DNA of 36,239 nt, taken from Myxococcota bacterium (GTDB lineage Bacteria > Myxococcota_A > Polyangia > HGW-17). Below the pieces are notes generated by a model that was not told the origin of the DNA, searched no databases, and saw nothing but the letters and a program-made list of their open reading frames with translations. The translations under genes were made by a program, and so were the position numbers. The DNA lies in the NCBI GenBank assembly GCA_018821305.1, contig JAHJMN010000185.1, positions 1-36,239 on the forward strand. Direction: 5' to 3'. Positions 1 through 36,239 of this stretch are shown piece by piece. Positions within the stretch are counted from its first letter, which is position 1. Each line of letters opens with the position of its first letter.

Positions 1-164
1 ACAAAGGTGGAGAAAATAATTCAGGCAAGAATGATGCCTCCGACAAAGGTGGAGAAAATAATTCAGGCAAGAATGACGTCTCCAGATTCACGGAGGGGCG
101 TCATTTAGGTCTATGTGATTGCCCCGGCGCCGATCCCAGGGTTAAAACCCTGGGCTATCTATAG
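1..164 (+). CDS. 3' end of a protein with 14-residue tandem repeats (partial)
   Basis: The reading frame enters from the left edge and stops at TAG 162-164. It starts with two copies of a 42-bp direct repeat (1-42 and 43-84) encoding the 14-residue unit DKGGENNSGKNDAS, which is Gly/Asn/Ser/Lys rich and probably disordered or surface exposed. After the second unit the frame leaves the repeat and reads through the first unit of the R3 palindromic array, so the last 26 or so residues (RFTEGRHLGLCDCPG and onward) are encoded by repeat DNA rather than ancestral gene sequence. I infer that R3 insertion replaced the original C-terminus. The protein's identity is not visible. Confidence 0.55.
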   Translation, partial: KGGENNSGKNDASDKGGENNSGKNDVSRFTEGRHLGLCDCPGADPRVKTLGYL

Positions 165-545
165 GCGGTCTGCGAACGCTTTCAGGATCCGCGGATTCAA
201 GATTGCGTTTGGATTCACGGGTGGCGTCATTTACGTCTATGTGATTACCCCAGCGCCGTCCCGGCTCTTACGAGCCGGGCTGATAAACTTGCGCCTGTGT
301 GGGCACAGGCTCATGATCCGAGGATTCAAGATTGCGTTTGGATTCACGGGTGGCGTCATTTACGTCTATGTGATTGAAAAATGTCGGATTTTCCGCGTTC
401 GTAGAACGCCTGTAATTAGCCCAGTGCTTCAGCTCTGGGTTAGGCGTTCCTGACCCGTCCCGTTCCCCCTTTACTGCGCCGCCTGCGGCGGCGCAGTAAA
501 GGGGGAGCGCTTTTTCGGATCCGCGGATTCAACATCGCATTGGGG
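85..545 (+). repeat. R3 palindromic repeat array, left copy (three units)
   Basis: Three units in the same orientation start at about 85, 213 and 342. Each has a 36-bp head (GATTCACGGGTGGCGTCATT, then TACGTCTATGTGATT) and a tail ending GGATTCAAGATTGCGTTTG. Between head and tail lie hairpins: 135-154 (CCCAGGGTT/AACCCTGGG), 260-279 (CCCGGCTC/GAGCCGGG), 293-310 (GCCTGTG/CACAGGC), 395-409 (GCGTTC/GAACGC) and 420-439. The third unit ends in a giant hairpin at 461-509. A same-orientation three-unit array lies at 31640-32160. The open frame across 115-453 is a by-product of the repeats, not a gene. Confidence 0.85.
461..509 (+). terminator. Giant hairpin ending the left R3 array; possible terminator
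   Basis: The arms at 465-483 and 487-505 are perfectly complementary over 19 bp around a 3-nt TGC loop. They extend to 461 and 509 with one G-U wobble in RNA. A run of T (511-515) follows directly, so it could end transcription of the gene entering from the left. The right array ends in a structurally equivalent hairpin whose outer arm sequence differs, so the structure seems to matter more than the exact sequence. Confidence 0.55.
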
Positions 546-5360: not shown

Positions 5361-5609
5361 ATACATTGAATGTTTACGACCTGCTCCTGACTCTGTTTTC
5401 CTGTTAAAAAAATCAGGGAACAGGTAATCAGTAACAGGATCAGGCAAGCAGGATCAGGCAAGCAGGATCAGGCAAGCAGGATCAGGCAAGCAGGATCAGG
5501 CAAGCAGGATCAGGCAAGCAGGATCAGGCAAGCAGGGTCAGGCAAGCAGGGTCTTTAACTTGAGGCTTTATCTTGAAATAATTTACTATCTTATAACTCC
5601 GAAAGCGGT
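5361..5609 (+). repeat. R2 element copy 1, internally expanded
   Basis: Shares with the copies at 9915, 11605 and 13878 the left segment ATTGAATGTTTACG, the CCTG-rich arm, the A-run linker CTGTTAAAAAAATCAGG, and a right tail ending AACTCCGAAAGCGGT. That right end is a degraded form of the R2 inverted end TTACTCTGCAAGCGGT. The descending CAGG arm has been expanded into a 14-bp tandem array (5435-5553). The element fills almost the whole gap between the TolC-type gene and the next lipoprotein, whose start codon follows within 5 bp. Confidence 0.7.
5435..5553 (+). repeat. 14-bp tandem repeat, eight units plus a partial
   Basis: Eight units of CAGGATCAGGCAAG, starting every 14 bp from 5435, followed by a partial unit. 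The last full unit and the partial carry a GGATC to GGGTC change. Spacing is exact and there are no spacers. It lies inside an R2 element and appears to be slippage expansion of that element's CAGG-rich arm. Confidence 0.95.
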
Positions 5610-6192: not shown

Positions 6193-6212
6193 CTCTTCAA
6201 AGCACTGAAATA

Positions 6213-6365
6213 GTTCGTGTCCTGAAATTCAATTTTTATCAAAATTGAGCATGTTTACGAAAACATGCTATTCAGAACACTACAATAATTTCAAGGTCTT
6301 CGTTGTTACTGTCCTGTGTTTAAATCTTGATGAAACTTGAAAACCTGTATTTCAGGACAGTAACT
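6213..6365 (+). repeat. R1 element copy A with 5-bp flanking duplication
   Basis: A 153-bp element bounded by GTTCGTGTCCTGAAAT on the left and ATTTCAGGACAGTAAC on the right, inverted with two mismatches. It is flanked by AAATA at 6208-6212 and 6366-6370, as expected for a target duplication. Internal structure: outer stem 6217-6226/6271-6280; hairpins 6230-6247 (CAATTTT/AAAATTG) and 6249-6268 (GCATGTTT/AAACATGC); and a second stem 6305-6316/6353-6364 (GTTACTGTCCTG/CAGGACAGTAAC). It holds no coding sequence, so any transposase must act in trans. Confidence 0.85.
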
Positions 6366-9642: not shown

Positions 9643-9658
9643 AAAACCTCCCTTTGTA

Positions 9659-9812
9659 GTTCGTGTCCTGAAATTCAATTTTTATCAAATTTGAGCATGT
9701 TCAGGAAAACATGCCATTCAGAACACTATAATAATTTCAAGGTCTTCATTCTTAATGTCCTGTGTCAAAATCCGGTGTAAACTTGAAAAGACCGTATTAC
9801 AGGACATTAACT
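9659..9812 (+). repeat. R1 element copy B with 5-bp flanking duplication
   Basis: A 154-bp relative of copy A, same plus-strand orientation, ending GTTCGTGTCCTG and CAGGACATTAACT. TTGTA flanks it on both sides (9654-9658 and 9813-9817). Its second stem is 9752-9763/9799-9810 (TTAATGTCCTGT/ACAGGACATTAA). Compared with copy A, a C-G pair has become A-T in both arms, so pairing is kept. The first hairpin has one mismatch and the second keeps 7 bp. It sits 16 bp from the start of the minus-strand membrane gene. Confidence 0.85.
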
Positions 9813-23094: not shown

Positions 23095-24426
23095 TCAGGG
23101 TCTTATAAATCCTGCGACGGTTTCAAAGTGGTGAGAATCGGGGAACATGTCAAAACCTCTCAGCCTTGCCAGTTCAAAACCGCTGGTGGCGAGCAAATCC
23201 GTGTCCCGTTTGAGAGTAAAAGGATTGCAGCTCATGTAAATAATAAAATTTACATCCGAATCAACAATTGCCTCAACCGTTGCCCGGTCGAGACCACCCC
23301 TTGGTGGATTTACAACGATTACATCGAAACTTTTTGAATTGAGAATGTTATTAATGAGCCCACTGTCACCGGCATCCCCGGTGATGAAATTCACTTTCTT
23401 TGAAGATAATCGACCGGCGGAAGTTAAAAACGGATTTATCTCTAAAGCTGTAACATCAAAACCCGCCTCCGCAAGGGATATGGAAATCCCACCGCTTCCG
23501 GCAAAAATTTCAAAAACACTGCTTTTACCAACTGCAAGTTCGATTATGTACGAATATGCTTCAAACGCCACGCTGGAATTGGCCTGGGAAAAGGATACCG
23601 CATCACAGTATTGAAAACCGCCAGGCACGCTGACACGGACAAGTCTTTCCCCCGCAAGGAGGATTTCCTCTTTTCCCGCAAGACGGTTTGTCTTTTCCGG
23701 GTTTATATTAAGACTTACCCCAATGACGCCATCTTTTCCCATGAGAGATTTCATATCCTCAATGATGCCGGGAGAAGGCATCACAGCAGTTATGAACGTA
23801 ATTACAACCCCTTCCCCGCTTTTTAACATAACGGATCTCAGGATTCCTTCCCCTGTGGATTCATTATAGGCGGGAATTTGCGCAACTGTTTTCCTGAGTT
23901 CCGGCAAAACCCTTCGGATTTCGTCCGTCAGAATCACGCAGTCGAGCATTTCAAACACATCATGGCTGTCGGGTTTGTAGGACCCCAGAATCGTTTTGTC
24001 ATCAGGGCCGGCAGTGGCGATAAACTTGGCTTTTGAACGCCATCCATAGCGGTTCTTTGACGGCACAAACTCGGCATTGCGGTTGAAAAGCTCCCCGAGT
24101 AGTTTCTTTTTCAATTGAATCTGATAATTGTAATCAATAAATGCCCCTTCACACGACCCGCATTCCGTTACAAACGGACACAGCGGCGTAATCCGGTGGA
24201 TTGAAGGTTCATTCAGGTCCGCAATACGGCCAAACCCCCTCGGACTGTGCGATGAAACGGCATCTATCACAATATGGGCCACATCACCAGCTACGGCAAA
24301 AGGAACAGAAATCGCATAGCCACTACAGATGCAACTTCCCCTGAAATCATGGTTGTTTGCACTTATGTGTGTTTTGAGGCACTGCCCCGGAAGCTTTCTA
24401 CCAGCCTTCGTTTTCTTTGACTTCAT
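23095..24426 (-). CDS. Second TrmA/RlmD-family RNA (uracil-5)-methyltransferase
   Basis: 443 aa from the ATG at 24426 ([11 protein letters not shown]); another ATG seven codons upstream (24447) is equally possible, and neither has a clear ribosome site. A TRAM-type domain with SVPFAVAGDVAHIVI lies near 40-60. Four Cys suitable for a 4Fe-4S cluster are C83, C89, C92 (CPFVTECGSC) and C163. The SAM fold has VFEIFAGSGGISISLAEAG, the NPPRGGLD motif, MSCNPFTLKRD with catalytic Cys near 400, and FPDSHHFETV with the general base Glu near 435. It overlaps the spoVR 3' end, so it is part of or coupled to the prkA-yeaH-spoVR operon. Low similarity to the paralogue at 13973 suggests a different target uridine. 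Confidence 0.88.
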   Translation of the reverse strand: MKSKKTKAGRKLPGQCLKTHISANNHDFRGSCICSGYAISVPFAVAGDVAHIVIDAVSSHSPRGFGRIADLNEPSIHRITPLCPFVTECGSCEGAFIDYNYQIQLKKKLLGELFNRNAEFVPSKNRYGWRSKAKFIATAGPDDKTILGSYKPDSHDVFEMLDCVILTDEIRRVLPELRKTVAQIPAYNESTGEGILRSVMLKSGEGVVITFITAVMPSPGIIEDMKSLMGKDGVIGVSLNINPEKTNRLAGKEEILLAGERLVRVSVPGGFQYCDAVSFSQANSSVAFEAYSYIIELAVGKSSVFEIFAGSGGISISLAEAGFDVTALEINPFLTSAGRLSSKKVNFITGDAGDSGLINNILNSKSFDVIVVNPPRGGLDRATVEAIVDSDVNFIIYMSCNPFTLKRDTDLLATSGFELARLRGFDMFPDSHHFETVAGFIRP

Positions 24427-25903
24427 TTGATGTATGAATCTGACCATCGTAACTGAGGACTAAATGTTTGTTTTTAAAAACTGTTCGGATGTTCACCGGA
24501 CGTTTCCAGATGCGGTTAATGTTTTCAAGGGTTGCCTTTGCGTAGGGCACCTCGAGGTCGATACCGTTATGCCGGTGCACCAGATAAAGTTCGCTGCGAT
24601 TATGATAATTGGCGTCAACGACTTCAATTACCGGCTGTCCGCGATTTGTAAGCTGGAACAAAAGCCGCTGCTTGATTTCGTTAAACTCACGTGTGGAAAT
24701 GACGTATTCTTCCTTGCTCTTGTTGAAATCGTAGTTGAAAAACTGCCGTTCGTTGGCAAAGTCCTCGGTGAAAAACTCATCAAGGAACGTCACATCGGAA
24801 AAGTGCCGCCGGACTTCGAAAATCTTCTCGATACCTTTGTTAGCCTGGGTATTCCAGTGCAGCCTTTGCTCAATATCAGTGCAGTTGTGGTATTCCGGCC
24901 CGAAGGCTCCGCGGTTCCAGCGTTCTTCAATGTAGCGGAACAGCTCAAGGCCCATCTTGTACGGGTTGAGTTGCCCCTTGGCCTGATATGTGACGCCACT
25001 CGTGGTATCGGCGTAGTTTATAACTTCACTGGGCTCAAGGAGTTTTTCCGTCATCATCTTCGTATGCCAGAAAGTGGCCCACCCCTCGTTCATGATTTTC
25101 GTCATGGCCTGAGGAGCAAAGTAATACGCTTCCTCGCGTATTGTCTCGAGAATCATGCGTTCCCAGGTGTTAAGCGGCGCGTAATGAATAAGGAAGTTCA
25201 GAACGTCACTCGTGGGCGCCCAGGGAAGGCGGTTGCGGTTTTTCATGGACTCGCGGATTTTTTCCTTCTGAGTTTCCAGATACTCCGGCGGATTTATGAA
25301 TGATTCCATATACGGTTTCGCATCAAAGCGGTGGATCGCCCCGGAATCTATGCGGGTTTCCCCGGTGTCCGGTGGTGGCTCCATGGGCTGACGCACGATA
25401 AACTGGCTGTAGACGTCAATGAGGTTTTCAATACTCAGACACACGTCAATGAAGTTTTCAATCTCCTCGACACCGTATTTCTCCATGGCCCGACGCACTT
25501 TCACCGCGTGATTCGCCATTTCGTTAATCATATGCCGTTCGGTCTTTGAAAATGTGAAGTTATTCTTGAAAAAGTCATTGTGAGCCATAACATGGGCCAT
25601 GACCATCTTCTGCTCCATGAGGGAGTTTCCTTCGAGAAGATAGGCATAACACGGGTCGTTATTGATGACCATTTCGTAGATTTTCGACAGACCGAAAATA
25701 TGGCTCTTACTCAGGCGATCGTATTCCATCCCGTAACGCCAGTGGGGATAGCGACTGGGAAAACCGCCGTATGCCGCCACTTCGTTCATGGTTTTGTAAT
25801 CGAGAACAATAAAATGCGTCGGAAAGAAATCAAGGCCGTAGGATTTGGCGACGTCTTCAACGCGAAGTTGCATTTCTCTCAGGTAGCGGGGAAGTTCAGA
25901 CAT
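24398..25903 (-). CDS. spoVR: SpoVR family protein
   Basis: 501 aa, the family's usual length. It opens [36 protein letters not shown] and includes [24 protein letters not shown] near 45-65, [13 protein letters not shown] near 105 and the conserved [13 protein letters not shown] near 290, all typical of SpoVR/YcgB. The molecular function is not established; the family is linked to stress and stationary-phase physiology and, in Bacillus, to the spore cortex. Here it sits directly behind yeaH (2 bp between TAA and ATG), giving the widespread prkA-yeaH-spoVR trio. No sporulation genes are nearby, so the general stress role is more likely than sporulation. Confidence 0.96.
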
Positions 25904-25905
25904 CT

Positions 25906-27018
25906 TTACTTACCCTTTCCTAAAAAGTCCCTGATGCTGTCCATAATGGCATCCCGGTCGGGAATGTTGGAGAGAATCAGGTTTTCTTCTTTTGTGCCGT
26001 AGGCTTCCTCAAGGTCGTGAATAAACTGACCGGAGCCGTAAGGGCTTTTCACCTGGCCGTAACCGAAAAGATTGATTTTCGGTAGCAGCCGTTCCGTAAG
26101 TATTGAGAAACAGCGGTTGGTGTCCTCCCTCGACCAGTTATCACCATCGGAAAACTGGAAAATGTAGATGTTCCACTCGTCCACAGGGTATTCTTTTTCA
26201 ACAATGTCTGCCGCCACGGCATAGGCACTTGAGATCATGGTTCCGCCGCTTTCTTTCGTGCGGTAGAAAGTATCCTGGTCGACCTCCCGGGCTTTCGTAT
26301 CGTGAATGATGTAGCGCGATTCAATGCCGTCATACTGGTAACGCAGCCAAGTGTCGATCCAGAAGGATTCAATGCGCACCATGAGCTTTTGCTCCTCACC
26401 CATGGACCCGGAAACGTCCATAATATAAATGATTACGGCGTTTGTCTGCGGGATTACGCTTTCTTTCCAACTGCGAAAACGCTTGTCCTCTTTAATGGGC
26501 ACTATTACCGGGCAATTTTTGTCATAGGTGCCCATGGTAATCTGTCGTTTGAGTGCTTCGCGGTATGTGCGTTTGAAATGACGCAGGGACTCGGGGCCCG
26601 TATGCCTTATGGCGTTGTATTTATCCTTGGGAGCCTTGATTGTGCGCGTGCCCCGGGGTTTGATGTTCGGAAGTTCCAGCTCCTCACCGATGATTTTCGC
26701 AAGATCCTCAAGTGAAAACTCAACTTCGAGACTGTGCTGCCCGGGTTGATCCCCCGCCTGCCCCTGACCGTCGCCTTTTTGCGGATCGCCTCCGAGGCTG
26801 TCGCCTACTTCCCCTTCCCCCTGCCCTACGCCGCCGGAATCCTTTAGATTATAGCGGAATCGCGGCATATCGATGGAGTGGACGGGAATGGAAACTTTGT
26901 CTTTACCCTGCTTGCCAATCATATCGCCCCGGGAAATATACTTCCGCAAATCGCTTTTAATGCGACCTTTGACGATTTGTTTGAATCTGGCGTGATCCTG
27001 ATCGATTTTCTGACTCAT
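25906..27018 (-). CDS. yeaH: YeaH/YhbH family protein (DUF444, VWA-like)
   Basis: 370 aa from the ATG at 27018, which has AGGA seven bases upstream ([18 protein letters not shown]). The N-terminal third contains the family stretch [32 protein letters not shown], followed by a Gly/Gln/Asp-rich spacer (about 62-95). The C-terminal half has a von Willebrand A-like fold with [15 protein letters not shown], a metal-site motif DxSxS at about residue 201, and [15 protein letters not shown] and [10 protein letters not shown], which complete a MIDAS-type site. In enterobacteria its partner is the YeaG kinase. It lies 66 bp downstream of prkA and 2 bp upstream of spoVR. Confidence 0.95.
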
Positions 27019-27084
27019 AATCACATCCTGCGGGCCTTAAGGCCGTTTATTCATGCCGTTAAAAAAACAAAAGTGCACCCCGGT

Positions 27085-29163
27085 TTATTTTACGGATTTC
27101 ACGTCACCACGGGCGAAAATCGATGCAACGTACTGCAGAATGTCACTGCTACAGATTTCGCAATAACCGTAATTCCGGATGAGCCTTGATTTAATGATCT
27201 CAATCTTGGCTTGCTCGTCTTTATCTACCATGCCGCTGACGATACTCGTAAGCTTGATGGCATCCCGGCTGTCTTCAAAGAGTTTGAGTTCAAGTGCCCT
27301 CGTGAGCCGTTCGTTCATGCGGTAGTCAAACTGCTTGCCGTCCACTGCCAGAGCGCCGATGTAGTTCATGAGTTCCCGGCGGAAATCATCCTTGCGACTT
27401 TCGGGAATGTCGATTTTCTCTTCGATGGAGCGCATGAGGTGCTCATCGGGTTCCATGTATTCCCCGGTGTATTTGTTTTTGACGCGCTCGCGCTGGGTGT
27501 AGGCTTTAACGTTGTCGATGTAGTTTGCACACAGTTTCCCGATAGCTTCTTCATCGGCACTGATGGCACGCTGAACTTCGTTTTTCACGAGGTCTTCGTA
27601 TTCTTCTTTTACCACGGCCATGAGTTCGCGGTAATGAGCTTTAATCTCCTCGTTTGTGATAAGGCTGTGAGATCGCAGTCCTTTTTCAAGTTCATTTAAA
27701 ACCATGAAGGGATTGATACAGCCTTCGTCCTCGTCACTGACTAAAACGTTGGAGATTTTGTCCTGCACAAAACGGGGCGAAATACCGTCCATTCCTTCGC
27801 GCATGGATTCCTTGCGTAATTCTTTGATGTTATCGACGGTGAAGCCCGGAATGTTTTTGCCGTCGTAGAGTTTGAGCTTCTGAAGCAGAGTCAGATTATG
27901 CTTTTTCGGGTCTTCAAGGCGCGTGAGAATCGTCCACATGGCGGCCATCTCGAGAGTATGCGGCGCAATGTGCTTTTTGATTTTCTCTTCGTTGAAGGAT
28001 TTACGGTAGATTTTTTCTTCTTCGCTTACGCGAGTAACATACGGCGTATCGATTTTGATGGTTCGATCCCGGAGGGCTTCCATGAACTCGTTGTTCAAGA
28101 GTTTGCGGTATTCAGCTTCGTTCGTGTGACCAATGATAACTTCATCGATGTCCGTCTGGGCGAACTTCTTGGGTTTGATTTTATGTTCCTGAGTGGCGCC
28201 GAGGAGATCATAAAGGAAAGCAACGTCCAGCTTGAGAATTTCGATGAATTCGATGATTCCGCGGTTTGCGATGTTGAATTCACCATCGAAGTTGAAGGCT
28301 CTCGGATCGCTGTCTGTGCCAAACTCGGCGATTTTGCGGTAGTTGAGATCCCCCGTAAGTTCCGTGGAATCCTGATTTTTCTCGTCTTTAGGCTGGAAGG
28401 TACCGATACCACAACGATTTTTCTCGGAAAGCACAAGGCGCCGCACTCTGATATGCGTTTCGATCATCTTTTCCCAGTCGCCATCGTGATGTTTGATGAG
28501 TTCCCGGTAAATCTGCCTTGATGCGGGATCCAGTTCGCGATCCAGCTTGAGAGTTGCCGCCGGATAAGGGAAGTTGTTGAGATCAATGAGATCACCAAGA
28601 ACCTTTTCGCGCCATTCAACGGGAATGAGCAGAATAGGATCTTCGTTCATCGGGGACGGGAAAATCGTCTCGCCACCGCTTATGTGAGCCAGTTCCTGCG
28701 GGAGGATCCAGTCGAAAGTATAAAGTTTACCTTTTTCCGTGCGGCTGTAGTCTTCCAGTCCGCGCTTAATAAGCCGTGCCACCGTGGACTTGGCGCTACC
28801 TACGGGGCCGTGGAGCAGAATAATGCGGCTTTCGGGGCCGTAACCCATCGCGGCGCCCTTTATAACGTTTACAAAGCGCTGCAGAGGAATATCAAGGCCG
28901 TAGACAGCATCTTTGCCTCCGTTTACGGGATCATAAAAGAAGTTATACCTTGTGATTTCCTTCTTGAAATCCGTATAAATATCCACACCGTGGGAAATCA
29001 TCATGTCGTAAAGCCGCTGATAGGCAGTGCGGATGACTTCCGGGCTTTCCTTCACAATATTGAGGTATTCCTGAAAGGTCCCCGTCCAGTTGATGGCCTT
29101 GTAGGCTTCTTTGTCCTGCAGTTTGCCGATTTCAGACACCGTCGTAAGCTTGATATCAGTCAT
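27085..29163 (-). CDS. prkA: PrkA (YeaG) family serine protein kinase/AAA+ protein
   Basis: 692 aa. The start at 29163 (MTDIKLTT) is chosen because GGTGGAGG lies just upstream; the longer frame would use that SD as codons. The N-terminal AAA domain has [17 protein letters not shown] (Walker A near residue 120) and the family stretch [31 protein letters not shown]. The conserved [32 protein letters not shown] and [19 protein letters not shown] lie near 285-335, and a C-terminal kinase-like region follows. PrkA proteins phosphorylate Ser/Thr, and recent views also give them ATP-dependent protease-like activity. It is first in the minus-strand operon, controlling or using YeaH and SpoVR in nutrient or stress adaptation. 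Confidence 0.97.
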
Positions 29164-29289
29164 AAAATCCTCCACCTTGGGCGCGTAAAGCGTTATTCCG
29201 GAAATTGTTCAAAGCAACTAACCTATCAAATAACACGAAATGAAAGTTTTCGCATTCCTCTTTTTCGGCATTTCGGGGATTATTTTTTA

Positions 29290-29335
29290 GTTCGTGTCCT
29301 GCAATTCGCTTTGCGAAGGATTTTATTTTTACACA
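29290..29335 (+). repeat. R1 element, partial copy D
   Basis: GTTCGTGTCCTG opens the fragment, followed by the hairpin TTCGC-TTT-GCGAA (29305-29317) and GGATTTTATTTTTACAC. It matches the reverse complement of copy E (around 34300-34344) rather than copies A-C. The right half is missing. It lies between the divergent prkA and the HPPD-like gene. Confidence 0.6.
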
Positions 29336-31639: not shown

Positions 31640-32160
31640 AAACACAATAGATTCAACATCGCGTTTGGATTCACGGGTCGAGGTCATTTACGTTTATGTG
31701 ATTACCCCGGCGCCGTCCCGGCTCTTACGAACCGGGCTGGAAAGCTTGCGCCTGTGCAAGCACAGGCTCATGATCCGCGGATTCAGGGTCGCGTTGGGAT
31801 TCACGGGTGTGATCATTCATGTTTATGTGATTACCCCGGCGCCGTCCCAGAGCTGAAGCACTGGGCTAATATAGGCGGTCTACGAACGCTTGTCGCATCA
31901 TTTCCCGCACTTCGATTCAGAATTGCGTTATCCCATGTTGTTTACAATATGATCTGCGGATTCAACGTCGCGTTGGGATTCACGGGTCGAGGTCATTTAC
32001 GTCTATGTGATTACCAAATACCAAACGCCGGAAATTTCCGCGTTCGCAAGAACGCCTTTGGATAGCCCGGAGCTTCAGCTCCGGGTCCGCGTACGCACCC
32101 CCGCCCCCTTTTTCCCTCATATGCGCCGCCGGTGGCGGTGCATATGAGGGAAAAAGAAAA
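31640..32160 (+). repeat. R3 palindromic repeat array, right copy (three units)
   Basis: Three units in the same orientation as the left array begin near 31669, 31799 and 31978, with heads GATTCACGGGTCGAGGTCAT or close variants. Hairpins: 31717-31736, 31750-31767 (GCCTGTG/CACAGGC), 31846-31865, 32040-32055 (GCGTTC/GAACGC) and 32066-32085 (CCCGGAGCT/AGCTCCGGG). The array ends with a giant hairpin at 32108-32156. The preceding 31523-31640 is AT-rich with no gene seen. Open frames through the array are repeat by-products. Confidence 0.85.
32108..32156 (+). other. Giant hairpin ending the right R3 array
   Basis: The arms 32108-32130 and 32134-32156 pair over 23 positions with one G-U wobble and a GGT loop. 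The inner 8 bp (GCGCCGCC/GGCGGTGC) match the left-array hairpin. The outer 15 bp (CTTTTTCCCTCATAT and complement) share little with the left one, yet pair just as well. Confidence 0.85.
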
Positions 32161-34203: not shown

Positions 34204-34344
34204 TTACTGTACTGAAATACCGAAAATCAAATTTTTCACCCGATTTTTGCTCAGGACAGTAACCGCAAGGTGTTGAATTTATTACTAGTGGCCTGTTCGG
34301 ATTTTTAATAAAATCCTTCGCGAAGCGAATTACAGGACACGAAA
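34202..34344 (-). repeat. R1 element copy E, inverted and diverged
   Basis: Compared with copies A-C it lies in the opposite orientation: AGTTACTGTACTGAAAT on the left, ATTACAGGACACGAAA on the right. One stem is 34203-34215/34251-34263 (one mismatch). Two hairpins, 34299-34316 (GGATTTT/AAAATCC) and 34317-34329 (TTCGC/GCGAA), occupy the places of the two hairpins in copy A but have unrelated sequences. GAAAT occurs at both edges (34197-34201 and 34341-34345). Confidence 0.65.
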
Positions 34345-34425
34345 TAGGTACTGTACTTTAAACCAGAACAGCCATTGCTGACAATGGCAACTTTATATCG
34401 ACCAGATTGGAACCAAGAGATGAAC

Positions 34426-35996: not shown

Positions 35997-36164
35997 TCAT
36001 AGCACAGGCTGCTTTACTGGAGTTGGCCTGAGGACTTCCATATCGAAGTTTCCGATACCGAGATTTCCATCATTATTGTGCCCCCAGCAGTAAGCACTTC
36101 CGTCATTTTTCAGGGCGCATGTGTGAATCTTACCGGCGGAAATTTTCACAACATTATCTATATA
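35997..36164 (-). pseudogene. C-terminal remnant of an RCC1-repeat protein, cut by an R1 element
   Basis: The readable part encodes DNVVKISAGKIHTCALKNDG followed by SAYCWGHNNDGNLGIGNF, a complete RCC1 (regulator of chromosome condensation) blade, then a short tail ending PVKQPVL. Upstream, the frame enters R1 copy C and meets an in-frame stop within the element, so the rest of the multi-blade propeller is separated. A short protein could start at TTG inside the element (36194), but that is unlikely to fold. The other part of the gene, if present, lies beyond the right edge. Confidence 0.65.
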
Positions 36165-36239
36165 GTTCGTGTCCTGAAATTCAATTTTTATCAAAATTGA
36201 GCATGTTTACGAAAACATGCTATTCAGAACACTATAATA
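36165..36239 (+). repeat. R1 element copy C, cut by the window edge
   Basis: The visible 75 bp from GTTCGTGTCCTGAAATTC match copy A (6213 onward) with a single C to T difference near the end. The left flank ATATA is a candidate target duplication. The near-identity suggests recent movement or gene conversion. Confidence 0.85.

Follow-up and report, generated by a model that had tools for sequence, protein, structure and literature searches.

The IS200/IS605 family includes derivatives that lack tnpA, among them PATEs and IS605 MITEs, and the BIMEs of Escherichia coli are extragenic mosaics in which palindromic units are arrayed with linkers that they share. In Pseudomonas fluorescens SBW25, ordered REPIN clusters consist of tandem repeats of a flank f1, a REPIN and a flank f2 (PMC3116915). 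A 2018 survey characterized TnpA_Y1 subclass 1.2 by the motifs Y-x3-Q-x2-HH, DH[IV]H and WQ and a length of about 148 aa, placed it mostly in Cyanobacteria and Bacteroidetes, and listed it as 'no' for REP and as generally without IS200 terminal structures (Quentin et al., PMC6006769). A literature search of limited extent found no later paper naming subclass 1.2 in the survey's sense.

Composition of the two arrays

The window, which is the whole stretch of 36,239 nucleotides analysed, had been described in an initial annotation as carrying two same-direction arrays of hairpin-bearing units. The arrays are real: each has three heads on the + strand, hairpin cassettes between them and a palindrome after the last head. 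The features are given below by position and strand.

77..123, +, array 1 head 1, truncated at the 5' end (HMM match); abuts the end of a 42-bp-repeat reading frame
135..179, -, array 1 cassette D, which is cassette C reversed; hp1 CCCAGGGTT..AACCCTGGG-CTAT and hp2, aligned with tnpA-flanking copies
195..249, +, array 1 head 2 (HMM match)
260..319, +, array 1 cassette A; double hairpin of hp1 CCCGGCTC..GAGCCGGG-CTGATAA and hp2 GCCTGTG..CACAGGC, then the tail TCATGATCC
324..375, +, array 1 head 3 (HMM match)
391..439, +, array 1 cassette C; hp2 GCGTTC..GAACGC, TTAG, hp1 CCCAGTGC..GCTCTGGG, the same hairpins as those flanking tnpA
464..506, no strand, array 1 giant palindrome, part of cassette C; near-perfect, after the last head (covariation alignment)
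515..545, +, array 1 tail GATCCGCGG and start of a truncated fourth head (ATTCAACATCGCATTGGGG), from the sequence
31651..31706, +, array 2 head 1 (HMM match)
31717..31776, +, array 2 cassette A (module search)
31781..31835, +, array 2 head 2 (HMM match)
31846..31889, -, array 2 cassette D (C in reverse); CCCAGAGCTGAAGCACTGGGCTAATATAGGCGG..GAACGC
31919..31954, +, array 2 tail segment of a D/B-type unit (module search)
31960..32015, +, array 2 head 3 (HMM match)
32036..32085, +, array 2 cassette C, second subfamily; ATAG-CCCGGAGCTTCAGCTCCGGG, as at the contig-84 tnpA
32108..32156, no strand, array 2 giant palindrome; near-perfect, after the last head

The arrays are mosaics built from four or more types of cassette. 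One type, D, corresponds to a part of cassette C in reverse complement: positions 31846-31870 (cassette D, array 2) are the perfect reverse complement of 415-439 (cassette C, array 1). The unit at 226-375 matched that at 31683-31832 at 87%, and the DNA strands of the arrays folded far below their shuffles (z = -7.7 and -6.2, with 0 of 100 shuffles as low). A coding role for the arrays was considered and rejected; the frames at 115-453 and 31754-32065 are taken to be spurious, since head-to-head spacing is generally not a multiple of three.

The basic unit is a 55-bp satellite made of the head plus ATCCGTTC or ATCCGCGG, with the sequence ATTCA-N12-GGATTCA-...-GTCATTCACGTTTATG|ATCCGTTC. A conserved head is present in every unit, as had been claimed, but at a length of 47-55 bp and not 36 bp. 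Each head unit has one fixed site, which is either empty or filled. By counts from unit lists, about 18 units of 55 bp were empty, with the form ...TTTATG|ATCCG; about 100 were occupied, the insert lying between TATG and ATCC, starting with TGATTACC and ending with CATG or TATG. The occupied form reads TATG|TGATTACC...hairpins...CATG|ATCCG. Within this one genome, filled and empty copies of the repeat site can be compared side by side. The exact element ends are provisional, the occupied/empty comparison being drawn from satellite units only.

The insert with cassette A, whose two hairpins are those listed for array 1, measures 74 bp (129 - 55). Cassette B consists of AGGGATC..GATCCC-TTCGCTAAT and GAACC..GGTTC, and cassette C of hp2, TTAG or ATAG, hp1 CCCAG..CTGGG and the giant palindrome. 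The hairpin foot in this genome is TTAG or ATAG at cassette C and TCAG at cassette A, and array-type palindromes have a T-run before the GC core and an A-run after it. The giant hairpin, previously thought to close each array, is really the centre of one cassette type, and an A double hairpin and more units often follow it (L012, L024).

The initial annotation understated the arrays, since those in the window are samples of a genome-wide mosaic family. Across the 5.2-Mb genome, 83 matches were found to a 206-bp unit, 45 to cassette B and 79 to cassette C, these sets partly covering the same arrays. Within the 355 kb of the genome covered by the module counts, an HMM found 164 heads; cassettes numbered 73 (A), 57 (B) and 78 (C) and giant palindromes about 50, and the modules fell into about 86 clusters of 1 to 23 each; the copy number is a lower bound because many arrays lie at contig ends. 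The modules are overwhelmingly extragenic: open reading frames of at least 150 aa covered 10% of module bases vs 73% of other bases. With the gene context taken from ORFs of 150 aa or more and not from curated genes, 22 of 46 clusters lay between convergent genes, compared with 35 of 169 adjacent ORF pairs as background, and array direction had no clear tie to the flanking genes. Copies within one array were more alike than copies across arrays (0 of 1000 permutations for each module), and local duplication therefore takes part in array growth. The unit DNA had no match in 58 relatives, including the sole available species of the same genus, and the head pattern had none in a contig collection from which this genome itself was possibly excluded. 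No array was found upstream of the orthologous RND pump in the sister species, where the region is too diverged for a clean empty site.

Other repeats were also seen. A second MITE-like family (AGTTCGTGTCCTGAAATTCAATTTTT...) occurs in the window at 6210-6287, 9656-9733 and 36162-36239, as an inverted pair at 29288-29327 and 34307-34346, and as a perfect 54-bp palindrome at L028:238-291. A 14-bp minisatellite, CAGGATCAGGCAAG, occupies 5407-5574 of the window, with related GGATCA tracts inside the hairpin array L008, and tandem repeats (TTTCAATGCACATATTCGATCACGCCGGAAATTTG..) at L009:2738-3080 immediately follow a hairpin array. At 24398-29175 of the window, PrkA kinase, DUF444 and SpoVR are encoded consecutively as an ordinary conserved operon.

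Transposase genes and hairpins in this and other genomes

That no protein explains the hairpins was correct for the arrays themselves but not for the genome as a whole, where tnpA genes are flanked by the same hairpins. Three Y1_Tnp genes were found. Two of them, 85-86% identical, are on contig 8 (L037) and contig 84 (L038), and each is bracketed by inverted copies of cassette C in the order hp2, NTAG, hp1 and giant palindrome; the hairpins at these two tnpA copies correspond to the two C subfamilies found in the arrays, TTAG-CCCAG and ATAG-CCCGGAG. Of the options that the initial annotation had left, a mobile structured element is the one in keeping with array hairpins that also bracket tnpA genes. 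In solo elements, which lack tnpA, cassette C and either A or C' form the two ends and enclose the giant palindrome (L067 twice, L070, L074, L077). Cassettes C and D are two orientations of an IS200/IS605-like element end, the giant hairpin is its internal palindrome, and cassette A, which is tied to tnpA through C-giant-A elements only, is the right half of such tnpA-less elements. The third tnpA has a copy of cassette B about 740 bp downstream and another multicopy hairpin family upstream; the link is suggestive only, and the tie of cassette B and the third tnpA to the rest of the system is less clear.

TnpA is 142 aa long, matches Pfam Y1_Tnp, has DHIH and the tyrosine Tyr116, and is a solitary HUH Y1 enzyme by model. 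It scored 81 bits against the NCBIfam IS200/IS605 transposase model NF033573 (cut-off 55). Judged from its motifs YIEKQEIHH, DHIH and WQ, it carries the Y-x3-Q-x2-HH signature of TnpA_Y1 subclass 1.2. No TnpB, as carried by IS605, was found in the genome. The contig-8 copy, whose gene lies at L037:4866-5294, interrupts a CRISPR array of 11 repeats next to a Cas_GSU0053 gene, and this position points to past mobility. The CRISPR array (L037:4458-6061) is type I-G/U-like by its Cas_GSU0053, and one block of repeat, spacer and left end is duplicated in it.

A collection-wide search returned 583 TnpA relatives, chosen for their similarity to a single query alignment; the best 80, from Bacteroidota, Planctomycetota, Acidobacteriota, Verrucomicrobiota and others, were taken, and 79 were testable. 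Y-x3-Q-x2-HH was present in 78 of the 79, with WQ and DH[IV]H partly imposed by the search patterns. Several same-class relatives had matching bracketing hairpins (L047, L049, L052, L057 and L060). In L055, tandem units of about 154 bp with three hairpins each flank tnpA; the units at L055:1240-2190 contain CCCGGTCGTGAACGACCGGG, AGGGCGCTTCCGGCGCCCT and CGCGGCGGTTCACCGCCGCG.

At 50 of 79 loci, the two 400-bp flanks had a repeat in common that scored above the 99th percentile of cross-locus pairs. Among the 59 loci with long flanks, a shared flank repeat was found near the gene in 38 and far from it in none, and the double-hairpin motif, the GGCT part of which was imposed by the scan, near the gene in 18 and far from it in none. 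When the scan was run without the GGCT constraint, 36 of 79 hairpins outside Bacteroidota had a TAG foot (19 of the 36 being GTAG), compared with 3 of 44 in the far control; the foot is not universal because it is rare in Bacteroidota (4 of 90 hairpins). Copy number was checked in two relatives and gave only 6 and 9 matches; mass amplification is therefore not general. The survey's entry for subclass 1.2, without REP or terminal hairpins, does not describe these loci, where hairpins are enriched near the gene.

It is fairly likely that subclass 1.2, so far classed as an orphan single-strand endonuclease without REPs, does have a REP-like substrate of its own, namely DNA hairpins that surround the gene as inverted or tandem copies in Planctomycetota, Acidobacteriota, Verrucomicrobiota, Bacteroidota and others; that outside Bacteroidota this substrate often takes the form CCC-stem-GGG-CTA-spacer-hp2 with a TAG foot; and that in this bacterium it was amplified into satellite-borne mosaic arrays. 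If so, a widespread subclass of single-strand DNA endonuclease described as having no substrate would gain a candidate one with defined sequences.

Origin of the arrays and nature of the hairpins

The arrays are probably REPIN/BIME-like mosaics of non-autonomous IS200/IS605-like ends, presumably dispersed by the subclass-1.2 transposase and amplified in tandem. TnpA would recognise single-stranded DNA in its folded form, probably where the replication fork exposes it, would be guided by the NTAG foot, and would move tnpA-less elements in trans, inserting them after TATG, with the element ending in CATG. The arrays may then have arisen when elements inserted into the 55-bp satellite and the units were duplicated in tandem or the heads underwent unequal exchange. 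The analysis brought out no host function for the arrays.

A neutral minisatellite would need slippage and unequal exchange only, with the palindromes kept by template-switch correction and tnpA as a bystander with similar repeats. Head-only tandem 55-bp units do occur, arrays are homogenised internally and the genome has other minisatellites, but this origin is unlikely: it leaves unexplained the 86 dispersed clusters, the solo two-ended elements, the tnpA insertion in the CRISPR array and the fact that homologous tnpA genes in other phyla are bracketed by hairpins of this kind. For the perfect palindromes, template-switch repair without any protein could be an alternative means of upkeep.

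Stems that vary and still pair had been reported for the arrays, and the covariation check agreed: giant, A and C stems covary, the giant stem strongly so. In the giant stem, 97.3% of cells were paired and 19 of 25 pairs had changed on both sides, with 186 two-sided and 12 one-sided cells (0 of 500 shuffles). The A and C double hairpins covaried at 6 of 15 and 6 of 14 pairs, and the cross-phylum hp1 stem, in examples from a scan requiring a stem, had 58 two-sided and 0 one-sided cells. Two outcomes had been named beforehand as contrary to the initial annotation, namely a total of only two arrays and an absence of covarying pairs; both were examined and neither holds.

Strong conserved hairpins, units in one direction and many clusters between convergent genes could also suggest a structured RNA, be it a riboregulator, a processing island or a bidirectional terminator. 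Selection on RNA is expected to leave G-U intermediates, and these were nearly absent (12 vs 186 in the giant stem, 0 vs 58 in the cross-phylum stem); because the paired changes nearly lack them, the hairpins are read as DNA. Such a pattern accords with DNA hairpins that are under selection or are repaired by template switching, not with RNA. Rfam gave no match at the gathering score, both orientations (C and D) occur within one array, and the same hairpins bracket tnpA genes. The proposed transcript-processing or terminator island fared no better, with no clear tie of array direction to flanking genes and with palindromes that run T-run, stem, A-run, opposite to an intrinsic terminator. An RNA origin is accordingly very unlikely, and the initial annotation is partly supported overall. 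The rarity of wobble pairs where stem changes are compensated offers a simple mark of DNA vs RNA that is usable on other unexplained hairpin arrays.

We see very little chance that the arrays belong to a canonical REP/RAYT system, with REPs of class 2 tyrosine transposases. Such a system would share the Y1 transposase between inverted hairpin pairs, the multicopy extragenic hairpins that also flank the transposase gene, the BIME-like clusters and the TAG foot. However, TnpA scored 23 bits against the curated RAYT model NF047646, far below its cut-off of 80, and is not a canonical RAYT; its Tyr motif is Y-x3-Q-x2-HH, whereas the class 2 motif of the survey ends in NP (PMC6006769); double hairpins with a giant palindrome are not canonical REPs; and the feet of this genome (TTAG, ATAG, TCAG) differ from GT[AG]G. 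An integron-like attC array, suggested by tandem units with imperfect palindromes, is wholly improbable, as no integron integrase in the genome exceeded the cut-off (best 71.7 bits vs 265) and the units lie mostly 55-285 bp apart without gene cassettes.

Comparison with known systems

The REPIN/RAYT system of SBW25 resembles this one in its non-autonomous hairpin pairs between genes and its adjoining Y1 transposase gene, and its f1-REPIN-f2 tandem matches the order head, hairpins, tail. The present system differs in a transposase that is not a RAYT by model, in units with double hairpins plus a giant palindrome of about 50 bp, and in a shared flank that is a 55-bp satellite also found without hairpins. 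With TnpA_Y1 subclass 1.2 it shares protein length, DHIH, WQ, Y-x3-Q-x2-HH and low copy number; unlike the subclass as surveyed, hairpins flank the gene at most of the 79 loci and are multicopy in this genome.

As in IS200/IS605, a solitary HUH Y1 TnpA above the NCBIfam cut-off has hairpin-bearing ends on both sides (L037, L038), and the TATG|..CATG| pattern of the array units may be likened to target-then-element-end logic; in contrast, the ends here are inverted double hairpins, the genome is without TnpB and many ends are arrayed in tandem. E. coli BIMEs are likewise mosaic extragenic palindrome arrays with shared linkers, but here the linker is a tandem satellite and the units run in one direction; the likeness seen is one of layout. 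This layout is known in kind; its association with this transposase subclass, the combination of double hairpin and giant palindrome, and the satellite scaffold appear to be new.
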